Below are positions 38,262 to 47,811 of a stretch of 64,000 bases of DNA, one piece after another. Each line of letters starts with the position of its first letter. The first letter of the stretch is position 1. Both the position numbers and the translations under genes were made by a program. This DNA comes from Opitutaceae bacterium. Its GTDB lineage: Bacteria > Verrucomicrobiota > Verrucomicrobiia > Opitutales > Opitutaceae. The stretch covers positions 124,001 to 188,000 of the forward strand of contig JABTUS010000010.1 in assembly GCA_015075305.1 (NCBI GenBank), given 5' to 3'. A model generated the notes under the pieces. It was not told where the DNA came from, ran no database searches, and saw only the letters and a program-made list of their open reading frames with translations.

Positions 38262-38504
38262 GAGGCAATCCGCATTGCCGTAGCCATCCTCTTGACCGAC
38301 GTTATCAATGATAGCAGGCATGCAACCATGCCGCAATTGATCGTCCGCAAGCTCGAGGCCACCGCGAGATCGATCTATTTAAATTACAACGTTCGCTCGG
38401 CCGTTTTCGTTTACGCTAAAATAGACAAAACTCTGGAATTTTTACAGGGATATCCTCGACACCTTGAGACCTGGAGGGCATGGAAAGGCACCCCTTTTTT
38501 ACCC

Positions 38505-39056
38505 ATGGCGGATTCCAATCACAGCCGGTGGTTCGCGGAAGAGATTCAACCGTACGAACCTTCTCTCCGGGCCTATCTGTCCAGGCGGTTTCCGACTGTT
38601 CGCGACCATGACGATCTTATCCAGGACACGTTTGTGCGCACATTGCGCGTCCGGGAGCGGGGGCGACTCGATCATATCAAGGCGTATTTGTTCGCAACGG
38701 TGCGCAATGCGGCAATCGATTGGCTGCGACGCCACCGACGTGAAACCCGCGACCTGACGGGGCTCTCGGATGACATGCATGTTCTCGATGAGAAACCGGG
38801 CGTTCGCGACGAGTTGGAGCGCAGGCAGGAGTTTGAAGCGGTGGTGGAAGCCGTCATGGCGTTGCCCGGCCGCTGCCGGGATGTCATGGTCCTCCGTTTT
38901 CTGGAAGGCTTCAAGACATGTGAAATTGCCGAAAGGCTGGAAATTTCGACTGAGACGGTGCGGGTGCAATTGTTCAAAGGCATCCGCACCTGCACGGCCA
39001 ACCTGGGTCGCAGGGGTTTCCTCGAACACCGGGGTGTCGCCTGCGAATCGCCATGA
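38505..39056 (+). CDS. FecI-like ECF sigma factor
   Basis: From ATG 38505 the 183-residue product has region 2 YEPSLRAYLSRRFPTVRDHDDLIQDTFVRTLRV and AYLFATVRNAAIDWLRRHRRE, then region 4 VVEAVMALPGRCRDVMVLRFLEGFKTCEIAERLEISTETVRVQLFKGIRTC. The sequence clusters with FecI-type sigma factors by its association with FecR and a TonB receptor. The frame is open upstream to 38292 but those residues are AT-rich leader. The 38375-38450 leader is AT-rich and probably holds the promoter. It overlaps fecR by four bases (ATGA). Confidence 0.92.
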   Translation: MADSNHSRWFAEEIQPYEPSLRAYLSRRFPTVRDHDDLIQDTFVRTLRVRERGRLDHIKAYLFATVRNAAIDWLRRHRRETRDLTGLSDDMHVLDEKPGVRDELERRQEFEAVVEAVMALPGRCRDVMVLRFLEGFKTCEIAERLEISTETVRVQLFKGIRTCTANLGRRGFLEHRGVACESP

Positions 39057-40096
39057 ACGAACCGACGCAATTCGAGGGGGACTTTCAAGAGGCGGTCGCT
39101 GACCGGGCGTTACTCTGGCTGATCGAGCGAGACGAAGGTTTCGCCGACGGCCGGGCGCGCGAGTTCGAGGCTTGGAAGAACGAGCACCCACGGCATGTGC
39201 AGGCTGTGCATGAAATGGAGGTGAAGTTCTCGGTGCTCGCCCGGCTGCCCGAGGCCCGGTCCAGGCTTGCGCATCTGGTTCCCCCTGCGCGGACGAATGC
39301 TGCGGCTCTCCTCTCCGTGTCGTCCCCGGCCAGACATGCTTTTTCTTTCTGGAAAACCGCCGGATTCGCCGCCCTCGCGGCGGGTGTGGTCATCATCGTG
39401 GCCGGTGGGTTGAAGTTTGGCGTCGGGCCTCCGGACTCCGGACGAACCTCGCTTGTTTCCGATGGGACAAATCGCACGGTAGACCTGCGCGACGGATCGA
39501 TCGTCCACCTCAATGCCGCCTCCGAGGTCAGCGTTCATTTCGAGGACAAGGAGCGGCGTCTTGCGTTGGTTCGGGGCGAGGCTCACTTCGAGGTGGCGCA
39601 CAATCCCGACCGGCCATTTGTCGTCGAGATCGAGAATGTGCGTGTGCGGGCGGTGGGAACGGCATTCTCGGTGGCGAAGGGGGATGGCAGCGTCAGGATC
39701 GTCGTGACCGAAGGAAAGGTTGCTGTCTCTGGGCCGGAGTCTGCCGCCGGCCTCCCGTCGGACGAGCGCCCCCTTGAGGCGGGACAGGCGCTGAACGTCG
39801 GAAAGGGGGAGGCTGTCTGGCAGGCACCTCTGGAAATCATAGACAAGGCAGCGATGCGCGACAAGGCAATGCGCAGGCGTTTGGTGGAGTTTACCCTGGC
39901 GGAGGCGGTCGACCGGATGGCCAAGAAGGGGGGACCGACGATCACGATTCTCGATTCAGAACTGGCGACCCGGCGCATTGGTGGCACGTTCGATACGTTG
40001 AAGCTGGAACCGCTGCTGCAACTTCTATCCAAACAGAACGATATTGTGATTGAACGGGATCCTGGAGGGGGCGCGACCTTGCGCCTCGCGCGATAA
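39053..40096 (+). CDS. FecR-family anti-sigma/transmembrane regulator
   Basis: 347 residues: an N-terminal cytoplasmic domain ALLWLIERDEGFADGRAREFEAWKNEHPRHVQAVHEME that contacts the sigma factor, one membrane helix near 103-122 (AGFAALAAGVVIIVAGGLKF), the periplasmic FecR domain TVDLRDGSIVHLNAASEVSVHFEDKERRLALVRGEAHFEVAHNPDRPFVV and a C-terminal STN/DUF4974-like part (VEFTLAEAVDRMAKKGGPTITILDSELATRRIGGTF). It relays receptor occupancy to the sigma factor. Translational overlap with fecI; the receptor follows 72 bases downstream. Confidence 0.93.
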   Translation: MNEPTQFEGDFQEAVADRALLWLIERDEGFADGRAREFEAWKNEHPRHVQAVHEMEVKFSVLARLPEARSRLAHLVPPARTNAAALLSVSSPARHAFSFWKTAGFAALAAGVVIIVAGGLKFGVGPPDSGRTSLVSDGTNRTVDLRDGSIVHLNAASEVSVHFEDKERRLALVRGEAHFEVAHNPDRPFVVEIENVRVRAVGTAFSVAKGDGSVRIVVTEGKVAVSGPESAAGLPSDERPLEAGQALNVGKGEAVWQAPLEIIDKAAMRDKAMRRRLVEFTLAEAVDRMAKKGGPTITILDSELATRRIGGTFDTLKLEPLLQLLSKQNDIVIERDPGGGATLRLAR

Positions 40097-40168
40097 ATGC
40101 GAAAAAATCAGTTGGGTGATAAACGATATCGGCGTTGCTGACGTTTCAGGAGTGTCGCAACCTTCCGG

Positions 40169-43100
40169 ATGCGCGCGTTCTTTCGTCCAATTGCCGTCGC
40201 ATTTGTCCTTTGGCTCGCCGTTTTGGATGTTTCCGGCGCGGCGGAGCTCGAGGCTCATCGTGAATATTCCCTGCCTGCTGGGGACGCCGTAACCATGCTC
40301 GTCCGCTTCTCGACCGAGTCGGGCATGGAATTGATGTTTTCTCCCGACGACCTCGCAGGCCGCAAAACCAAAGCAGTGCGGGGCCGTTACCCGGCCCTCC
40401 ACGCGCTCCGGAGAATGCTGGCTGGAACAGGCGTCGAAATCGAACCGATGCCGGGGGGAATCGTACTTGTTCATCCTGGCGAAAGCGCCCGACCGGAAGG
40501 CAGCGATCCACTATCACCGCAACACCCTGACGCCCCTTCAAAAATGAAGACTCCATCGCTCGCTCGGCGGGTGGCCGCGGCTTTCGCCGCGCTCGCCTCA
40601 ACTATGGCCCATTCCCAGACGTCCAGCCCCCAAGGAGGAGACGAGATCGTCGAACTTTCCCCCTTTGTCGTGCTGACCGATACGGATGTCGGTTGGGTCG
40701 CGACCGAGAGTCTTGCCGGCAGCCGGCTCCGTACGAACTTGAAGGATCTGCCGAACCAGATCGAGACACTCACGATGGACTTCATGCAGGATATGGGCGT
40801 GACGTCGATCGATCAGGCGCTGATCTACACCGCCAATACCGAAAACGCCAATGACTTCATGTCGGCCACGCCCGGCCAAGCCGTCGCGAGCCCAGGCACC
40901 GGCGGTCGCATTCGCGGCATCGGTGCCGGCACGCTTTCGCGAAACTTTTTTCAAGTACACAACCCGACCGACAACTTCAACCTCGAGCGCGCAACCGTTG
41001 CGAGCGGACCCAACGCCATTCTCTTCGGTCTCGGCAGTCCGGCCGGCATCCTCGATGTCACGCCGGCACGGGCGCAGACGCGGACCAGCAAGTACGGCTT
41101 TTCGCTCCAATACGACTCGGAGAACTCCCGGCGCGGCACCGTCGACGCCAACGTCGTTGTGCTGCGCGACAAGCTTGCCATTCGGTTGATGGGCACGTCG
41201 AAGCGCGAGTACACCTACAAGCTGCCCAATCTCGATCGCGACGAGCGGCTCTATGCTGCAATTACATACAAGCCGTTCAAGAACACCACGATCATCCTCC
41301 AGGGCGAGCGCGACCATCGAAACTGGAACCGCGCGGGCCGCATTGCGCCAAGCGAGAACATCACCCCATGGCTGTACGCGAACCAGATTGCCGGAAGCGG
41401 CTATACGACGGCCAAACCGGTTTACGACAACCGCAGCTTCACTGGGATCGGAAACAACCGCGTTTTTAACCAAGCTGGCGACACGGCCGTGGTGATCAAC
41501 GGCGGAACGCCCGTTCCGCTGATGGGCTGGCGCAATTCGGTCGTAGTCCGGAGTCCGAGCACGCTGCCGGGAGTTGATCCAACGTTCGACGCCGGTGTCA
41601 GCCACTCCATCATGGATGCCAGCATCTTTCCCTTCGACGTGAACGTCGTCGGTGAAGCTCGCACCACACTGATGGGCGCCTACACCAAGACCGCCATCAT
41701 CGAACAGAAACTGGCCCCGAACTGGTTTCTGGAGCTGGCCTACAATCGCGAGGACGCCTACGACCACCGACTCAACGCGGGAGGCCAGGCGGGCAGTAGC
41801 GAATTTGGGCTCGGAGTCGACGCCAACCAGTTCCTGCCCGGCACGACCACCCCGAACCCAAATTTCGGCAAGTACTACTTTCAGGGGGGCGCAAAGAATG
41901 ACCTCGACTATTATGAACGCGACGACTGGCGGATCACCACCTCGTATGAGTTCGACGCCGCGCGGATACTGTCGGAGCGCTTTCCCTGGGGCAAGTGGCT
42001 CGGCAACCACCGGCTCTCGGCCCTCTACACGGGTGCAAAATCCAAGTACATGGGGCAACAGAACTTCGAGCGGAAGATCCTCGACGACCCTGTGATCTCC
42101 GGACTCACCCTTCGCCCGAAGACCCAACGGAACTGGGCGACGCACTCGACCCGCGTGCCTGTTTACCGGCACTATTACAATGATCCATACGATCCGACGC
42201 CGGCCTTCGGCTCAATGACAGGAGACTGGACGCTCACCGACACCAATGGCCGCATCTTCAACCTGCCCCTGTACGAAACCGGGTTGCTGGCAGCTGACGG
42301 AAAGCGGCTGGCTGCCGCGAGCGTGGCGCAGGGATCGCTGAACAAGACCAGCGCCATGATTTTCGCCTGGCAGGGCTATTTCCTTCCGGATCGTGAGAAA
42401 CGCAACCGGCTCATCCTGACTTACGGCTATCGCAAGGACTCCGCGGATGCCGCCACCCTCGACAACGCCTCCCAGCTCCAGGACTTCTCGGGCTTGTATC
42501 CTGTCTTGTGGGACGCCAACTTCGCCGACTATAGTCAGTCGCAGTCGGGCATCAACCGCAACTACGGCGTGGTCGCCAGTCCCCTGCGCTGGTTTTCGGT
42601 GTTCTACAACCAGTCCGCGACCTTCGATCTGAACATCGGACGCTACGATCCCTTCGGCAACGACATCCCCGGTGCCAGCGGCGAAGGCAAGGACTACGGC
42701 ATCCGCTTTGACCTGTGGGATGAACGTCTTACAATCCGGCTCAACCGTTACGAGAACACGATTGGCCCTCAGCGTGCCTCCAGTCAGATAAACGGTCTGC
42801 GCGACCAGTTCTACAACGTCGAGCAGCGTGTACTTCAGCTCGACCCGCAGATCGAGACCATCAACGTCGTTGATGGCAACATGCGCGGCTATCGCGTGGC
42901 CGGCCGGCCGAATTATTACATCATGTCGGACGCCGCGTCGAAAGGCTACGAACTCGAGATCAACTTCAACCCAGTGCGCAACTGGAACATCCGGCTCAAC
43001 GGCGCCCGCGGCGAAGCCGTGGAGTCCGACATCGGGCAACCTTGGTTCGAATGGGAGGCTCAGCGACGTCCCGTCTGGGAATCCGTCGTAGCCAAGAATG

Positions 43101-43642
43101 GCGAGGTAGATGCGCAGGGCCGACCGGCAACCTGGCAGACCGCACCCTACAGTGCTTCGAATCCCACGGGCCAGACACTGGCCCAGTATTACCAGTCGCA
43201 GGTCGTGGGCCGGGCGCTTGCGTTCATGGCCGCCGCCGATGGTCGCGCCACGGACAGCGCTCGCGCAAGTCGCGCCAACCTGATCACCAACTACAGTTTC
43301 ACCGGGAATTTTCTCCGCGGCTTCAACGTCGGTGGTGCCGCACGCTGGCGTGCCGAACCGACCATCGGCTACGGCATTACCACCGCCGCCGATGGCGCCG
43401 TGCTGCTCGACATCGGCCGGCCGTATCGCGGCAAGTCCGAACTATACTTTGACGCCGTGATGGGCTATCGCGGCAAACTCAAGGCCTTCGGTGGCTTCAA
43501 CTACAAGCTGCAGCTCAACGTCCGCAATCTGCTCAACGAAGACGACGTCATCCCAGTCCAGGCGCTCACCACGGGCGAAATCGCGAAAGTTGCCACAGTC
43601 GAGCCCCGTGTCATTGTACTCAGCTTCAGTGTGAATCTCTGA
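40169..43642 (+). CDS. TonB-dependent transducer receptor with N-terminal STN domain and internal second signal-peptide-like segment
   Basis: A first signal peptide (IAVAFVLWLAVLDVSGAAE) precedes an STN domain (about 30-110: YSLPAGDAVTMLVRFSTESGMELMFSPDD, ALRRMLAGTGVEIEPMPGGIVLV) which contacts FecR. At residue 126 a segment MKTPSLARRVAAAFAALAS plus TMAHSQTSS looks like another signal peptide, followed by EIVELSPFVV, the usual mature start of Opitutaceae-type receptors, then plug (RTNLKDLPNQIETLTMDFMQDMG, ATVASGPNAILFGLGSPAGILDV) and barrel to the C-terminal aromatic-poor strand IVLSFSVNL. It should import an oligosaccharide or chelate and signal to the sigma factor. The arrangement is consistent with a domain fusion. 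Confidence 0.9.
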   Translation: MRAFFRPIAVAFVLWLAVLDVSGAAELEAHREYSLPAGDAVTMLVRFSTESGMELMFSPDDLAGRKTKAVRGRYPALHALRRMLAGTGVEIEPMPGGIVLVHPGESARPEGSDPLSPQHPDAPSKMKTPSLARRVAAAFAALASTMAHSQTSSPQGGDEIVELSPFVVLTDTDVGWVATESLAGSRLRTNLKDLPNQIETLTMDFMQDMGVTSIDQALIYTANTENANDFMSATPGQAVASPGTGGRIRGIGAGTLSRNFFQVHNPTDNFNLERATVASGPNAILFGLGSPAGILDVTPARAQTRTSKYGFSLQYDSENSRRGTVDANVVVLRDKLAIRLMGTSKREYTYKLPNLDRDERLYAAITYKPFKNTTIILQGERDHRNWNRAGRIAPSENITPWLYANQIAGSGYTTAKPVYDNRSFTGIGNNRVFNQAGDTAVVINGGTPVPLMGWRNSVVVRSPSTLPGVDPTFDAGVSHSIMDASIFPFDVNVVGEARTTLMGAYTKTAIIEQKLAPNWFLELAYNREDAYDHRLNAGGQAGSSEFGLGVDANQFLPGTTTPNPNFGKYYFQGGAKNDLDYYERDDWRITTSYEFDAARILSERFPWGKWLGNHRLSALYTGAKSKYMGQQNFERKILDDPVISGLTLRPKTQRNWATHSTRVPVYRHYYNDPYDPTPAFGSMTGDWTLTDTNGRIFNLPLYETGLLAADGKRLAAASVAQGSLNKTSAMIFAWQGYFLPDREKRNRLILTYGYRKDSADAATLDNASQLQDFSGLYPVLWDANFADYSQSQSGINRNYGVVASPLRWFSVFYNQSATFDLNIGRYDPFGNDIPGASGEGKDYGIRFDLWDERLTIRLNRYENTIGPQRASSQINGLRDQFYNVEQRVLQLDPQIETINVVDGNMRGYRVAGRPNYYIMSDAASKGYELEINFNPVRNWNIRLNGARGEAVESDIGQPWFEWEAQRRPVWESVVAKNGEVDAQGRPATWQTAPYSASNPTGQTLAQYYQSQVVGRALAFMAAADGRATDSARASRANLITNYSFTGNFLRGFNVGGAARWRAEPTIGYGITTAADGAVLLDIGRPYRGKSELYFDAVMGYRGKLKAFGGFNYKLQLNVRNLLNEDDVIPVQALTTGEIAKVATVEPRVIVLSFSVNL

Positions 43643-43653
43643 CAGGGGTAATC

Positions 43654-45204
43654 GTGCGCATTGGTCGCCATATCGGCTCTCTCGTTCGTTCTCTTCATCA
43701 TGCGCTGGCTCTGACTGGGTGCGGCGCTTCTCTGGCTTTGTGTCCCGGCACAACCGCAGCCGCTGCGACGGACGGGAAACCGCCGAACATCCTCTTCGTT
43801 ATTTTTGACGATTGGGGTGGCAGCACCCACACTGGGGCGGCGGGAAATGCACGGATCAAGACTCCCCATTTCGATCGGGTGGCCCATGAAGGCATTCTCT
43901 TCAAGAATGCCTTCACATCGAATCCGAAATGCAGTCCCAGCCGTGCAACGATTCTAACGGGGCGGAATACGTGGCAGTTGAAGGAGGCTGTTTCCCACAA
44001 TGGAATGTTTCCGGCGGGCTTTGCGGTCTATCCGGATCTTCTGGAAAATGCGGGGTATTCGATTGGCCTGACGGGCAAGGGTTGGGGGCCTGGCGATTTC
44101 AAGAGTCTCACCGGATGGACACGCAATCCTGCGGGACCGGAGTTTGCCGATCGGAAACGAAATCCGGAGACCAAGGGCATCAACAAGAACGACTACAGCG
44201 CCAACTTTGAGGATTTCCTCCGCCAGCGGGCCCCCGGAAAACCCTTCTGCTTTTGGATGGGTTTCACCGAACCGCACCGTTCGTATGAGCGCGGCTCCGG
44301 ACTTCGCTTGGGCAAGAAGCTCTCGGACGTCGTCGTTCCCGCGTATCTGCCGGACACCGAGACAGTCCGCTCTGACTTGTTGGACTACGCGATCGAGGTT
44401 GAATCGGGCGATGCCCAGCTGGGTCGAGCTTTGGCGCTGCTCGAAGCTGCCGGCGAACTGGAAAACACCGTGGTTGTGGTTACCTCGGATCATGGCATGC
44501 CCTTTCCCTTTGTGAAGGGACAGATTCATGAGGACGCCTTTCACATCCCTTTGGCCATTCGGTGGGGTGCGACAATCGCGCATGGCCGAGTCGTCGAGGA
44601 CTTTGTCAATGTGCGCGATCTTGCACCGACCTACCTGGAGCTGGCAGGCCTGCCTCCCCATCCCCAGATGACGGGTCGCAGTCTCGTCAGAATCCTGCGA
44701 TCGCCAAAATCGGGCTGGATCGAAGACCGCAACACGATGCTTGTGGGCATGGAGCGGCACAGCCTCGGTTTGCCGCGCGACTTGGGGTATCCTGTGCGGG
44801 CATTGCGCACCAAGGACTACCTCTACGTGCATAATTTCTTCCCCGACAGGTGGCCGGCGGGCACCCCCGAGGCTGATTTCGGCAACGTCGATCCCGGTCC
44901 GACAAAGGAGCTGATCAAGCAGCTCGGGGGCTACTACTATGAGCTTTCCTTTGGCAAACGCGCCCCCGACGAGCTATACCGTTTGAGCGACGACCCCGAA
45001 AACGTCCGAAATCTCGCGCATGACCTGGCTTTTGTGCCGGTGATGGAAGAACTCCGGACCCGTATGATGAAAATGCTGCGCGACGAAGAGGATCCCCGGG
45101 CGTTGGGACACGGGGATGTTTTCGATACGTATCGCTACGTGGGACCGCGGACAAAAGGTTATGAGACCTGGCTCGCAAAACAGCCGGGGTTGCCGGTCAA
45201 GTAG
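43654..45204 (+). CDS. Secreted sulfatase (type I, cysteine)
   Basis: GTG start with the ribosome-binding site AGGGG five bases upstream; 11 bases behind the receptor, so same operon. N-terminal signal peptide, then PNILFVIFDDWGG with metal-binding DD, NPKCSPSRATILTGRN with the formylglycine site C93-S-P-S-R, and VVVTSDHGMPFPFVKGQ with the DHG metal ligands. Formylglycine sulfatases cleave sulfate esters from sulfated glycans. A maturation enzyme must be elsewhere. Its location after a FecIR-controlled receptor suggests a sulfated polysaccharide substrate. Confidence 0.93.
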   Translation: MRIGRHIGSLVRSLHHALALTGCGASLALCPGTTAAAATDGKPPNILFVIFDDWGGSTHTGAAGNARIKTPHFDRVAHEGILFKNAFTSNPKCSPSRATILTGRNTWQLKEAVSHNGMFPAGFAVYPDLLENAGYSIGLTGKGWGPGDFKSLTGWTRNPAGPEFADRKRNPETKGINKNDYSANFEDFLRQRAPGKPFCFWMGFTEPHRSYERGSGLRLGKKLSDVVVPAYLPDTETVRSDLLDYAIEVESGDAQLGRALALLEAAGELENTVVVVTSDHGMPFPFVKGQIHEDAFHIPLAIRWGATIAHGRVVEDFVNVRDLAPTYLELAGLPPHPQMTGRSLVRILRSPKSGWIEDRNTMLVGMERHSLGLPRDLGYPVRALRTKDYLYVHNFFPDRWPAGTPEADFGNVDPGPTKELIKQLGGYYYELSFGKRAPDELYRLSDDPENVRNLAHDLAFVPVMEELRTRMMKMLRDEEDPRALGHGDVFDTYRYVGPRTKGYETWLAKQPGLPVK

Positions 45205-45215
45205 CGACCTGCCAT

Positions 45216-46031
45216 TCACCGCGCCTCCACCGCTTCCTTCAACGGATACACGGCAAATGAATCATATTCGCATCGCACGGTACGGCCCATTTGTCGGAGT
45301 CCAATCCATCCCCGGTGATTCCATACGGGGCCGTGAGTCTTGCCGTCATCGTCGAATGCCACGGAAATGACGTCGTCCACCATCAGCCGAATCATGCCGC
45401 CACGCTTGTAGATCCGCACGGTCTGAAATGCGTCCGCCGGGCCTTTCGTGACATAGTCAGGTCCGGTTGCGACCAGGTTGAACCCGGCATTTTTACGCAG
45501 ATTGGCAGTCCCTCGCGCACCCGCCCAATATGAAATGTGATAACCGTTGAGATCACTGCTGTGATATTGTTCGAACACGCCCGTGCGTGGCTTGAGTGCG
45601 GGATCAAATATGCCTTCGCCCCTGCGGCCACGGGTGTTGAAAAAGACGATGGTGAGTCCTTCCTTCCGATCTCTCGGTCGCAAAGCAAGCTCAAGGAGGA
45701 AGTCCGCGGGCATTTCCCGGTCGAGCCAGCAGACCAGATGGTTGTCCTTCTGCCCCGGCTCACTCTCCAGCACGAGCTTCCCGGATACGACACTCATCCG
45801 CCTGCCGCCTTCGAGCCTCCACTCTTTCAAGGCCGAGTCATCATCGAACGACGTCCGGTATGCAGGATGCATCCAATCGACATCGCTCGGAACAAAGCGC
45901 TGCCCGACGGAAGGATGAAAGGGCGGCTCCGGTGGCTTTGCCGCTCCTGCGATCGACGCCAGCATACCCAGCACCAAGGCTGTAAACCAACGACTCGTGA
46001 CCATGCTCGATTGCGTCTTCCGTGATGACAT
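45216..46031 (-). CDS. Secreted DUF1961 protein
   Basis: The product of 271 residues starts with a short charged stretch and a signal peptide (FTALVLGMLASIAGAAK). The jelly-roll body has WRLEGGRRMSVVSGKLVLES, DNHLVCWLDREMPADFLLELALRPRDRKEGLTIVFFNTRGRRGEGIFDP, YHISYWAGARGTANLRKN and the C-terminal GWIGLRQMGRTVRCEYDSFAVYPL. These are DUF1961 (YesU-like) blocks; structurally a lectin-type fold, likely binding or cleaving pectin- or fucan-type sugars. ATG 46031 chosen because GGAG stands six bases upstream. Opposite strand to the sulfatase, divergent to the next gene. Confidence 0.76.
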   Translation of the reverse strand: MSSRKTQSSMVTSRWFTALVLGMLASIAGAAKPPEPPFHPSVGQRFVPSDVDWMHPAYRTSFDDDSALKEWRLEGGRRMSVVSGKLVLESEPGQKDNHLVCWLDREMPADFLLELALRPRDRKEGLTIVFFNTRGRRGEGIFDPALKPRTGVFEQYHSSDLNGYHISYWAGARGTANLRKNAGFNLVATGPDYVTKGPADAFQTVRIYKRGGMIRLMVDDVISVAFDDDGKTHGPVWNHRGWIGLRQMGRTVRCEYDSFAVYPLKEAVEAR

Positions 46032-46215
46032 GCCAGGCTCCAGCTTCCGGCTGTGCGAAAGCGCGACAAGACTTAACTGAGCCGTGACTGCCGGACGCGT
46101 TTGTCCATCGCGTGGACTTCCCTTCAACCTCACTCCAACCGTTGTATCCACTCCCATGCCGAAAGAAGCCATTCGCTGCGCTCGCCACCAGTTTTTGCCC
46201 AACCGTAGTGACTCC

Positions 46216-47811
46216 ATGAGTCCCTCACTTGTCACAGGCGTTGCGCGCCGTGTCTCCCCGTTGCTCTTCCTCGGGCTGTTGGTAGCGGTCGTTGGCGTGA
46301 CGTGCCGCGCTGCAAATGAACCTGCGTCGCCTGCCGCCGCCGGCGACGCGGACTACATGAAACTTGTCCAGACCTACGCCGATGCCATGATCGCGCACGG
46401 ACGTGACACGTATGGCACGCAGCATTCCCCGCTGTTTGCGTCGGCGATGGACCGCAAGACCTTCAAACCCTTCGAGAAATCTCCTGGCGTGCTGGCGGAA
46501 ATGCGCGATGGCGACCGCACTTTCAGCGGCGCCAACCCGATGCACGATCAGAATCTCTATCAGATTCTTTACACTCTGACCGGGTTGACCGGCCAGCCCA
46601 GGTACGCCCAAGCCGCCGACGAGGCGCTTAAATGGTTCTTCGAGCATTGTCAGAGCTCGCGCGGCCTCATGGCGTGGGGTGAGCACCAGGGTTGGAATTT
46701 CTACACAGAGTCCTCCACGGCCCCAAAGGGTCCCCACGAATTCTTTCGTCCCTGGGTGCTGTGGGGCCGCAGTTACCAGCTTGCCCCCGAGGCCTGCCGG
46801 AGATTTGCCACGGGGTTGTGGGAGCATCAGATCGCCGACCATGAAAAGGGTCTCTATTCACGACATGCCATGCCCATTTGGGAGACCGATCTCAAGATCA
46901 AGAGCAGCCATGCAGGCGCTGAATTCCCGCGGCATGGCGGTTTCTATATCGCCACCTGGGCCGAAGCCTATTTCCGGACGAAAGATCCCCAAATGCTAAA
47001 GGCGGTCAAAGTGGTGCTCGACGGCTTTCTGGCGCGGCGCAACCCGCAAAGCGGCGCCATTCCCTCAGGAAGCCGCGATAAGAACCTCAGTCTCTTGTGG
47101 CCTGAAAGCAATCTGTCGCTGGCCATCGACTTGTGCGATGCCGCGCCGAAGGTCACTCCCGACCTGGCCGGGGAGATGCTCGCAGCCGCGGCGCAGATCG
47201 ACGAGATTTTCCTCAAGATGAAGCATGAGCCCGGACCGGGTGGCAAGGGGTTCATCAAGACAGCCGTGCCAGCGACGCTGGAGCCCGGGGACGAGCGGGC
47301 AGCCCCGGTCTTCGGCGCCGTGGGTCTGAGGCGGAAGAATTATACCGAGGTCTGGGCGACCGGCTACGGCGTGCATACGACCGCGAATTTCGCCCTCGCT
47401 TGCGAAATCCGTTACAACCAGACCAGGATCGATGGCTATAGGAAGCTGGTTATCGCCGCTGCTGATTTGTATCTCCAAGGCGAGCCTGACTTGGGGGACT
47501 CCATGGATGAGAGCAGCCACGAGACTCGCCCGACGCTCTATCCCGGCGCAATGGGGGATGTCATCGCCGTCGAGCTGGCTGGCCATCGCTTGACCGGCGA
47601 TCAGAAGTATCTCGCCCGCGCCAATCACTATGCTCGCATGGCCGTGCGGATCTTCCTCCCGGACGACTCGCCGTTGCCCCGGGTCAGTTCACGTGCGGAC
47701 TACTACGAGGCTCTCAGCCGTGGCGACTACTTGATGGCGCAGCTCCTGAACCTGTGGGCGGCTCAGAATCATCTCGAATCGAAAGTCAGGCTGATCTGGT
47801 GTGAACGTTGA
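46216..47811 (+). CDS. Secreted alpha/alpha-barrel protein, putative glycoside hydrolase or lyase
   Basis: A signal peptide (VSPLLFLGLLVAVVGVTCRAANEP) precedes about 500 residues with regular helix pairs, as in (alpha/alpha)6 barrels: GANPMHDQNLYQILYTLTGLTGQPRYAQAADEALKWFFEHCQ, RPWVLWGRSYQLAPEACRRFA, GGFYIATWAEAYFRTKDPQML and LTGDQKYLARANHYARMAVRIFL. The order of motifs resembles polysaccharide lyases and unsaturated glucuronyl hydrolase-like enzymes, but I cannot name a CAZy family. Conserved His, Trp and Asp/Glu residues (GEHQGWNFYTE, DHEKGLYSRH) could be catalytic. It belongs to the receptor/sulfatase cluster. Start at 46216 by signal peptide; the open frame begins at 46084. Confidence 0.68.
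   Translation: MSPSLVTGVARRVSPLLFLGLLVAVVGVTCRAANEPASPAAAGDADYMKLVQTYADAMIAHGRDTYGTQHSPLFASAMDRKTFKPFEKSPGVLAEMRDGDRTFSGANPMHDQNLYQILYTLTGLTGQPRYAQAADEALKWFFEHCQSSRGLMAWGEHQGWNFYTESSTAPKGPHEFFRPWVLWGRSYQLAPEACRRFATGLWEHQIADHEKGLYSRHAMPIWETDLKIKSSHAGAEFPRHGGFYIATWAEAYFRTKDPQMLKAVKVVLDGFLARRNPQSGAIPSGSRDKNLSLLWPESNLSLAIDLCDAAPKVTPDLAGEMLAAAAQIDEIFLKMKHEPGPGGKGFIKTAVPATLEPGDERAAPVFGAVGLRRKNYTEVWATGYGVHTTANFALACEIRYNQTRIDGYRKLVIAAADLYLQGEPDLGDSMDESSHETRPTLYPGAMGDVIAVELAGHRLTGDQKYLARANHYARMAVRIFLPDDSPLPRVSSRADYYEALSRGDYLMAQLLNLWAAQNHLESKVRLIWCER

Follow-up and report, generated by a model that had tools for sequence, protein, structure and literature searches.

What is a complete signal peptide, preceded by a start codon of its own, doing in the middle of an outer-membrane receptor? 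The question is raised by a gene for a TonB-dependent receptor in the window, by which we mean the whole 64,000-nucleotide stretch of Opitutaceae DNA analyzed here. The reading frame of this gene is open throughout, and it encodes a first signal peptide (SP1), an STN signaling domain, a linker, a second signal peptide (SP2), and the receptor proper (Table 1). The initial annotation offered two fates for SP2: cleavage, which would part the STN domain from the barrel, or burial as a linker. That these are the sole options is not supported, for the internal start carries marks of translation initiation and thereby presents a third option. Specifically, we consider it probable, judging from the sequence, that this is a nested two-start gene, in which the upstream start would yield a signaling receptor and the internal start would yield a plain receptor.

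Table 1. The receptor gene, its parts, and its neighbors, in window coordinates.
Feature	Position	Strand	Remarks
ECF sigma factor gene	38292..39056	+	Sigma70_r2 and r4_2; true start maybe downstream of TTG
FecR-type anti-sigma/sensor gene	39053..40096	+	PF04773, E 1.6e-20; upstream of receptor
Long product	40169..43642	+	STN-bearing TonB-dependent receptor, 1157 aa
Signal peptide 1 (SP1)	40169..40240	+	residues 1-24; from translation; ATG within predicted hairpin
STN signaling domain	40337..40471	+	residues 57-101; PF07660
Linker	40472..40543	+	like a translated 5' leader; in-frame stop absent; final 20 nt are 10% G
Internal ATG and signal peptide 2 (SP2)	40544..40615	+	residues 126-149; probable cleavage S149↓Q150
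Short product, inferred	40544..43642	+	STN-free receptor, 1032 aa, from internal start
ELSPFVV	40652..40672	+	residues 162-168; alignment A1; usual start of the receptor proper in the family
Sulfatase gene	43654-45204		downstream of receptor gene

Each part of the gene was compared with known models. The STN domain scores 25.1 bits (E 1.5e-5) against Pfam PF07660 in a single-protein scan, under the 28.4 cut-off, and 30.0 bits, above the cut-off, in a genome search. A 29-cassette profile, which includes the window gene, matches the solved signaling domains of FoxA, FpvA, CntO, PupA/PupB, HasR, and FecA. The plug and barrel match NCBIfam receptor models down to E 4.3e-11, all far under the curated cut-offs, and the Pfam plug and barrel models give no match to the receptor at E 0.001. 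Signal peptides were judged solely from hydropathy, charge, and cleavage motif. By these measures, SP1 has a best 11-residue hydropathy of 2.91, and SP2, MKTPSLARRVAAAFAALASTMAHS followed by Q150, combines a basic n-region with a hydrophobic core, its best mean over 11 residues being 1.83, and with a cleavage site of the form A-X-S↓Q. With these elements and the ATG at 40544 all present, the earlier claim of a second complete signal peptide inside the receptor, followed by ELSPFVV, is confirmed. On the downstream side, sulfatase, DUF1961, and pectate-lyase-like genes adjoin the receptor gene (window 43654-47811), a hint of uptake of a sulfated or acidic polysaccharide product.

The layout is neither an isolated oddity nor a sequencing artefact, because three further genes of the window genome share it: L002/L055, L023, and L037. 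The first of these is a paralog that is 54% identical to the window receptor across residues 9-1156. In total, SP2 is present in 107 examined STN receptors from 15 genera of one family, probably the Opitutaceae, a spread that lends no support to an isolated fusion. The count proceeds from 197 distinct STN segments, 173 of them fused to a plug, and 106 of these flagged as SP2-bearing; six were dropped as other hydrophobic stretches (L275, L080, L159, L161, L165, and L185) and seven were added. The additions stem from a relaxed filter that brought in nine genes, of which L080 was dropped and L072, which has a CTG and no clear cleavage site, was set apart. L087 and L191 have SP2-like linkers but are uncounted, the plug match being absent from the frame. 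The genus set derives mainly from an STN search covering 10 genomes, supplemented by loci that the window N-terminus and A1 retrieved as queries, with likely secretins excluded. In this set, 24 of the 88 receptors fused to STN carry SP2, including four from the window's genome. The possibility that the hydrophobic linker is simply a normal feature of the family is thus borne out in part, for these 24 genes.

Several loci in this collection display peculiarities of their own. At L023 and L040 (window genome, C3, ~116-118.5 kb), an STN-SP2 receptor is interrupted early in the plug by an inserted sequence, perhaps a mobile element. The same genome harbors a receptor in two ORFs (L010/L011, C10 231-234 kb) and a receptor with one in-frame TGA (L016, C6 285-288 kb), which are either pseudogenes or sequence errors. 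In L037, L153, L171, and L191, the stretch separating SP2 from the plug holds an additional domain that resembles a carboxypeptidase-regulatory-like fold.

With 21 candidates scored per genome, the SP2 profile matched 41 of 150 family genomes and 16 of 49 genera at E 1e-38; these are profile matches rather than SP2s confirmed one by one, and L275, which matches the SP2 profile in full and yet was dropped from the SP2 set, demonstrates that a full match does not prove SP2. The family sample consists of 30 loci plus 60 fetched, out of more than 100 rows, and its rows are skewed toward SP2 genes because an SP2-gene profile found them. In a draw of 288 genomes across the phylum, with 11 or fewer candidates scored in each, the SP2 profile A1 had matches in 18 at E 1e-25, all from the window's family. 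Seven of the 18 matched over the whole cassette, and many others matched over STN alone or plug alone. Seven genomes from three other families of the order gave nine STN matches, in ORFs of 626-918 aa, none of them showing a plug domain that would allow the layout to be compared. Full-text searches of open-licence papers turned up no publication on a nested SP2 receptor layout.

The frame between the two modules is kept. The linkers, on average 35 codons long, contain no in-frame stop, given that fused genes were selected; in the two alternative frames, 49 and 45 of 100 linkers are open. In the genus set, 24 fused SP2 genes are found versus six recognized split pairs, and mere neighbors would be expected to form ~16% one-frame pairs. 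The excess has a binomial p of 1e-14, a value to be read with the reservation that related genes are not independent and that close kinship links four of the six split loci. The six pairs were recognized among 18 STN-only segments of the genus set; others of these segments end at contig ends, at N runs, or with the fetched stretch, and L146 also belongs to the remainder. Given the stop-free linker and the kept frame, the suggestion that 40544 could be the real start, with a separate short gene upstream, does not hold as stated; we propose 40544 as a second start alongside the one at 40169.

The internal start codon is likewise conserved in relatives. All 100 strictly called SP2s are preceded by a start codon (88 ATG, 10 GTG, and 2 TTG), and the seven SP2 genes from the relaxed filter have ATG in every case. 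L072, a decayed relative, has CTG at the expected start. Start codons make up 2.3% of linker codons, with ATG contributing 20 of 3509, so a span of ~20 codons would hold a start codon by chance in about one-third of cases and an ATG in about one-tenth. Parsimony on the STN tree yields eight start-codon changes, every one within the set ATG, GTG, and TTG. Our rule for picking starts preferred an ATG within 22 residues of the core and otherwise accepted GTG or TTG; consequently, some start positions are perhaps not homologous, and the GTG/TTG share is no independent test. The unselected observation is that no strictly called SP2 occurs without a start codon. An internal Shine-Dalgarno sequence was considered and rejected: a 4-mer is found at 4 of 100 internal starts and, likewise, at ~4 of 48 starts of STN-less receptors. 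A scan of 39950-40700 for promoters of the sigma-70 type revealed no internal promoter. One paper names Verrucomicrobia bacterium IMCC26134 and Akkermansia among organisms in which Shine-Dalgarno sequences are scarce (PMC10783764).

The internal start codon and the RNA surrounding it bear the marks of a translation start. Specifically, the starts of STN-less receptors (n=48) have no Shine-Dalgarno sequence, a C/A-rich leader with 12% G in -20..0, and a minimum free energy (MFE) of -3.15 kcal/mol over -30..+20. The internal SP2 starts (n=100) are like them, with no Shine-Dalgarno sequence, 10% G in -20..0, and an MFE of -1.60. Elsewhere, the MFE is -12.25 at the linker ends of SP2-free receptors (n=57), -11.22 at plug positions (n=100), and -9.57 at SP1 starts (n=79). 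We removed the effect of amino acid sequence by randomizing synonymous codons according to each gene's own usage. Measured against these randomizations, the internal starts show greater openness (mean Z +1.27) and less G (mean Z -1.52; n=100). At four control sites, Z ranges from -0.38 to 0.00 (openness) and from -0.05 to +0.46 (G). Among single genes, 33% reach p < 0.05 for openness and 35% for G content. Grouping the genes into 56 clusters at 50% identity gives mean Z values of +1.29 for openness and -1.55 for G, with 54 and 53 of the 56 clusters, respectively, in the expected direction. In a positional scan, the signal is centered on the start codon: positions -3 to +6 codons give Z values of 1.24-1.40, compared with 0.26 at -12, 0.57 at +12, and between -0.23 and +0.24 at offsets of 18 codons or more. 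We also asked whether SP2 genes have SP1 starts that are weaker than those of other STN receptors; the difference is not significant (p 0.065).

The signature, present across the 100-gene set, appears in the window gene for G content (p 0.02 against randomized codons), and openness is not significant there (p 0.19). An 80-nt fold shows nothing out of the ordinary for the internal region of the window gene (z 0.12) and puts the AUG into the loop of a five-pair hairpin. Taken by itself, the window gene provides moderate RNA evidence. Its internal start folds at -3.8 kcal/mol versus -17.0 kcal/mol for the SP1 start (-30..+20), which sits within a hairpin, and out of 92 genes, 88 have an internal start that is more open than their best SP1 candidate. 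Both observations would suit a gene whose receptor is made from the internal start only, the STN part being either a degraded leader or a segment that SP2, as a stop-transfer helix, retains in the inner membrane. We regard this as very unlikely. Both the linker frame and the STN domain are preserved, and FecR genes precede 79 of 95 testable SP2 genes and 59 of 72 other STN receptors, versus 22 of 83 STN-less receptors.

STN modules also exist as loose parts in the family. At the six split loci (L024, L101, L147, L152, L182, and L058), an STN ORF closely precedes a receptor gene that has a signal peptide of its own. At six other loci, four on the plus strand (L224, L236, L267, and L282) and two on the minus strand (L266 and L268), a small ORF encodes a lipobox-like signal peptide and STN only. 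This apparent free-standing STN lipoprotein, with a mature length of ~85 aa in most cases, is located between a FecR match and an STN-SP2 receptor gene.

How closely does SP2 resemble a working signal peptide? The median 11-residue hydropathy is 2.12 for SP2s (n=100) versus 0.74 for the linkers of SP2-free STN receptors (n=57), a gap that is partly by construction, as a hydropathy filter had separated the two groups. N-terminal stretches of STN-less receptors have a median of 2.36 (n=58); SP2s fall below this value (p 7e-5), a difference to which we give no evidential weight because the stretch lengths differed. A cleavage-like motif follows SP2 in 96 of 100 genes, with A↓Q in 83 of 100. This motif, and the free STN proteins of the split pairs and the lipoprotein loci, would fit a processed precursor, that is, one exported chain that signal peptidase also cuts at SP2 to release a free STN protein and a receptor. 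Under the rules of Sec export, the segment ahead of SP2 is already periplasmic, so SP2 would be oriented the wrong way for signal peptidase. Processing of this kind, which also leaves the start codon and the RNA signature unexplained, strikes us as highly improbable.

The ancestry of the window gene points to a fusion. Its nearest receptors, L114, L115, and L116 (70%, 62%, and 64% identity over matched residues 125-330, 115-330, and 114-329, respectively), have N-terminal signal peptides of their own, and no STN was found within 1.5 kb upstream of them. Homology to these STN-less receptors starts at SP2 or slightly before. A plug-domain tree (196 rows, fasttree) places the window gene in clades of 9 rows (support 99) and 18 rows (support 94), and in each of them no other row is a fused STN carrier. 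L058, a member of the 9-row clade, has a separate STN ORF, its 5' end lost at the contig edge, whose stop falls 113 nt short of the first ATG in the frame of the receptor. The STN-less neighbors, the plug clades, and the split arrangement at L058 together indicate that a receptor of the ordinary kind acquired an STN module. They thus support the initial annotation in its view that an STN domain with its own signal peptide was joined in frame to an otherwise complete receptor. The best match to the window SP2 among STN genes is in L082 (50% over 30 aa), and the match to STN-less L114 also spans SP2; these matches would fit arrival of STN either alone or jointly with SP2. Across the family, the SP2 label changes 42 times on the plug tree (24 changes forced by well-supported branches) and 27 times on the STN tree (4 forced), with seven SP2 genes mislabelled in both counts. 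So many changes suggest that STN modules were probably exchanged among receptors, and separate fusion events are likely as well.

Frequent fusion raises the prospect that SP2 is a scar. Specifically, STN genes and receptor genes could have merged many times and recently, leaving the old start, leader, and signal peptide undecayed in a gene that makes the long protein only and in which SP2 is a passive linker. The number of SP2 changes on the plug tree and the position of the window gene within an STN-less clade favor this account, as do the six split pairs, including L182, where stop and start overlap as ATGA. L072, the fused gene with a CTG, is related to L182, shares its contig, and points the same way. 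Counterevidence comes from an STN-tree clade of 43 rows from eight genera, 42 of them with SP2, in which STN identity has a median of 44% and a minimum of 26%; the tree itself was built on 74 columns and is poorly resolved, with many forks open. If the fusion is as old as this clade, divergence is too great for a synonymous relic, and the RNA signature would have been maintained there. The confinement of start-codon changes to the start set also speaks against a scar. On balance, we judge a scar to be rather unlikely, if a good deal short of implausible.

The nested two-start gene is the reading that we prefer. Translation from 40169 would produce an exported receptor with an N-terminal STN domain, signaling via FecR to the ECF sigma factor, and translation from 40544 would produce the same receptor minus STN, behind an ordinary signal peptide. 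No Shine-Dalgarno sequence would be needed at the internal start, whose G-poor, unstructured leader doubles as coding sequence. Within the long product, SP2 would most likely travel through the Sec channel as a piece of the linker between STN and plug. How many receptors signal would depend on the ratio of the two products. With slightly more reserve, we lean toward extending the idea to the family, which may keep its transducing receptor gene as two nested same-frame genes, each with its own signal peptide and start. The linker would then be doubly selected, as open frame and as non-Shine-Dalgarno start, and the ratio of starts would set the signaling fraction. If so, a single gene could supply many transporters but only some sensors. 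Signaling by TonB-dependent transducers is usually described with every receptor copy capable of signaling. The conserved internal start would also represent a clear case of selection on the same DNA for two roles, coding and translation initiation, and the start-site annotation of the 107 counted genes would become ambiguous.

Transducers of the FecA, FpvA, FoxA, PupB, and HasR type possess one signal peptide and a continuous STN-plug linker, and are not known to carry a second export signal there. With these FecI/FecR-linked systems, the window gene shares the order STN-plug-barrel, the match to their signaling domains, and the adjoining ECF sigma factor and FecR genes, and its N-terminal STN likewise stands behind a signal peptide, one recognized by hydropathy only. 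It differs in the second signal peptide, with its own start codon, between STN and plug. The long form belongs to the STN transducers, and the second export signal is the departure. The split STN and receptor genes have the same gene order and the same two modules as the fused genes; unlike in the latter, a stop and a frame change separate the modules, and there is no fused product. Parallels also exist among in-frame dual-start genes. For ClpB, SsaQ, and other Salmonella N-terminal proteoforms (PMC11005335), as here, one gene has two same-frame starts and two N-termini, which in our case are predicted from the DNA. The outer-membrane cases described there, PagC and OmpX, have a short form without a signal peptide (PMC11005335), whereas in the window gene each start is followed by a complete signal peptide and the two forms would differ by the signaling domain.
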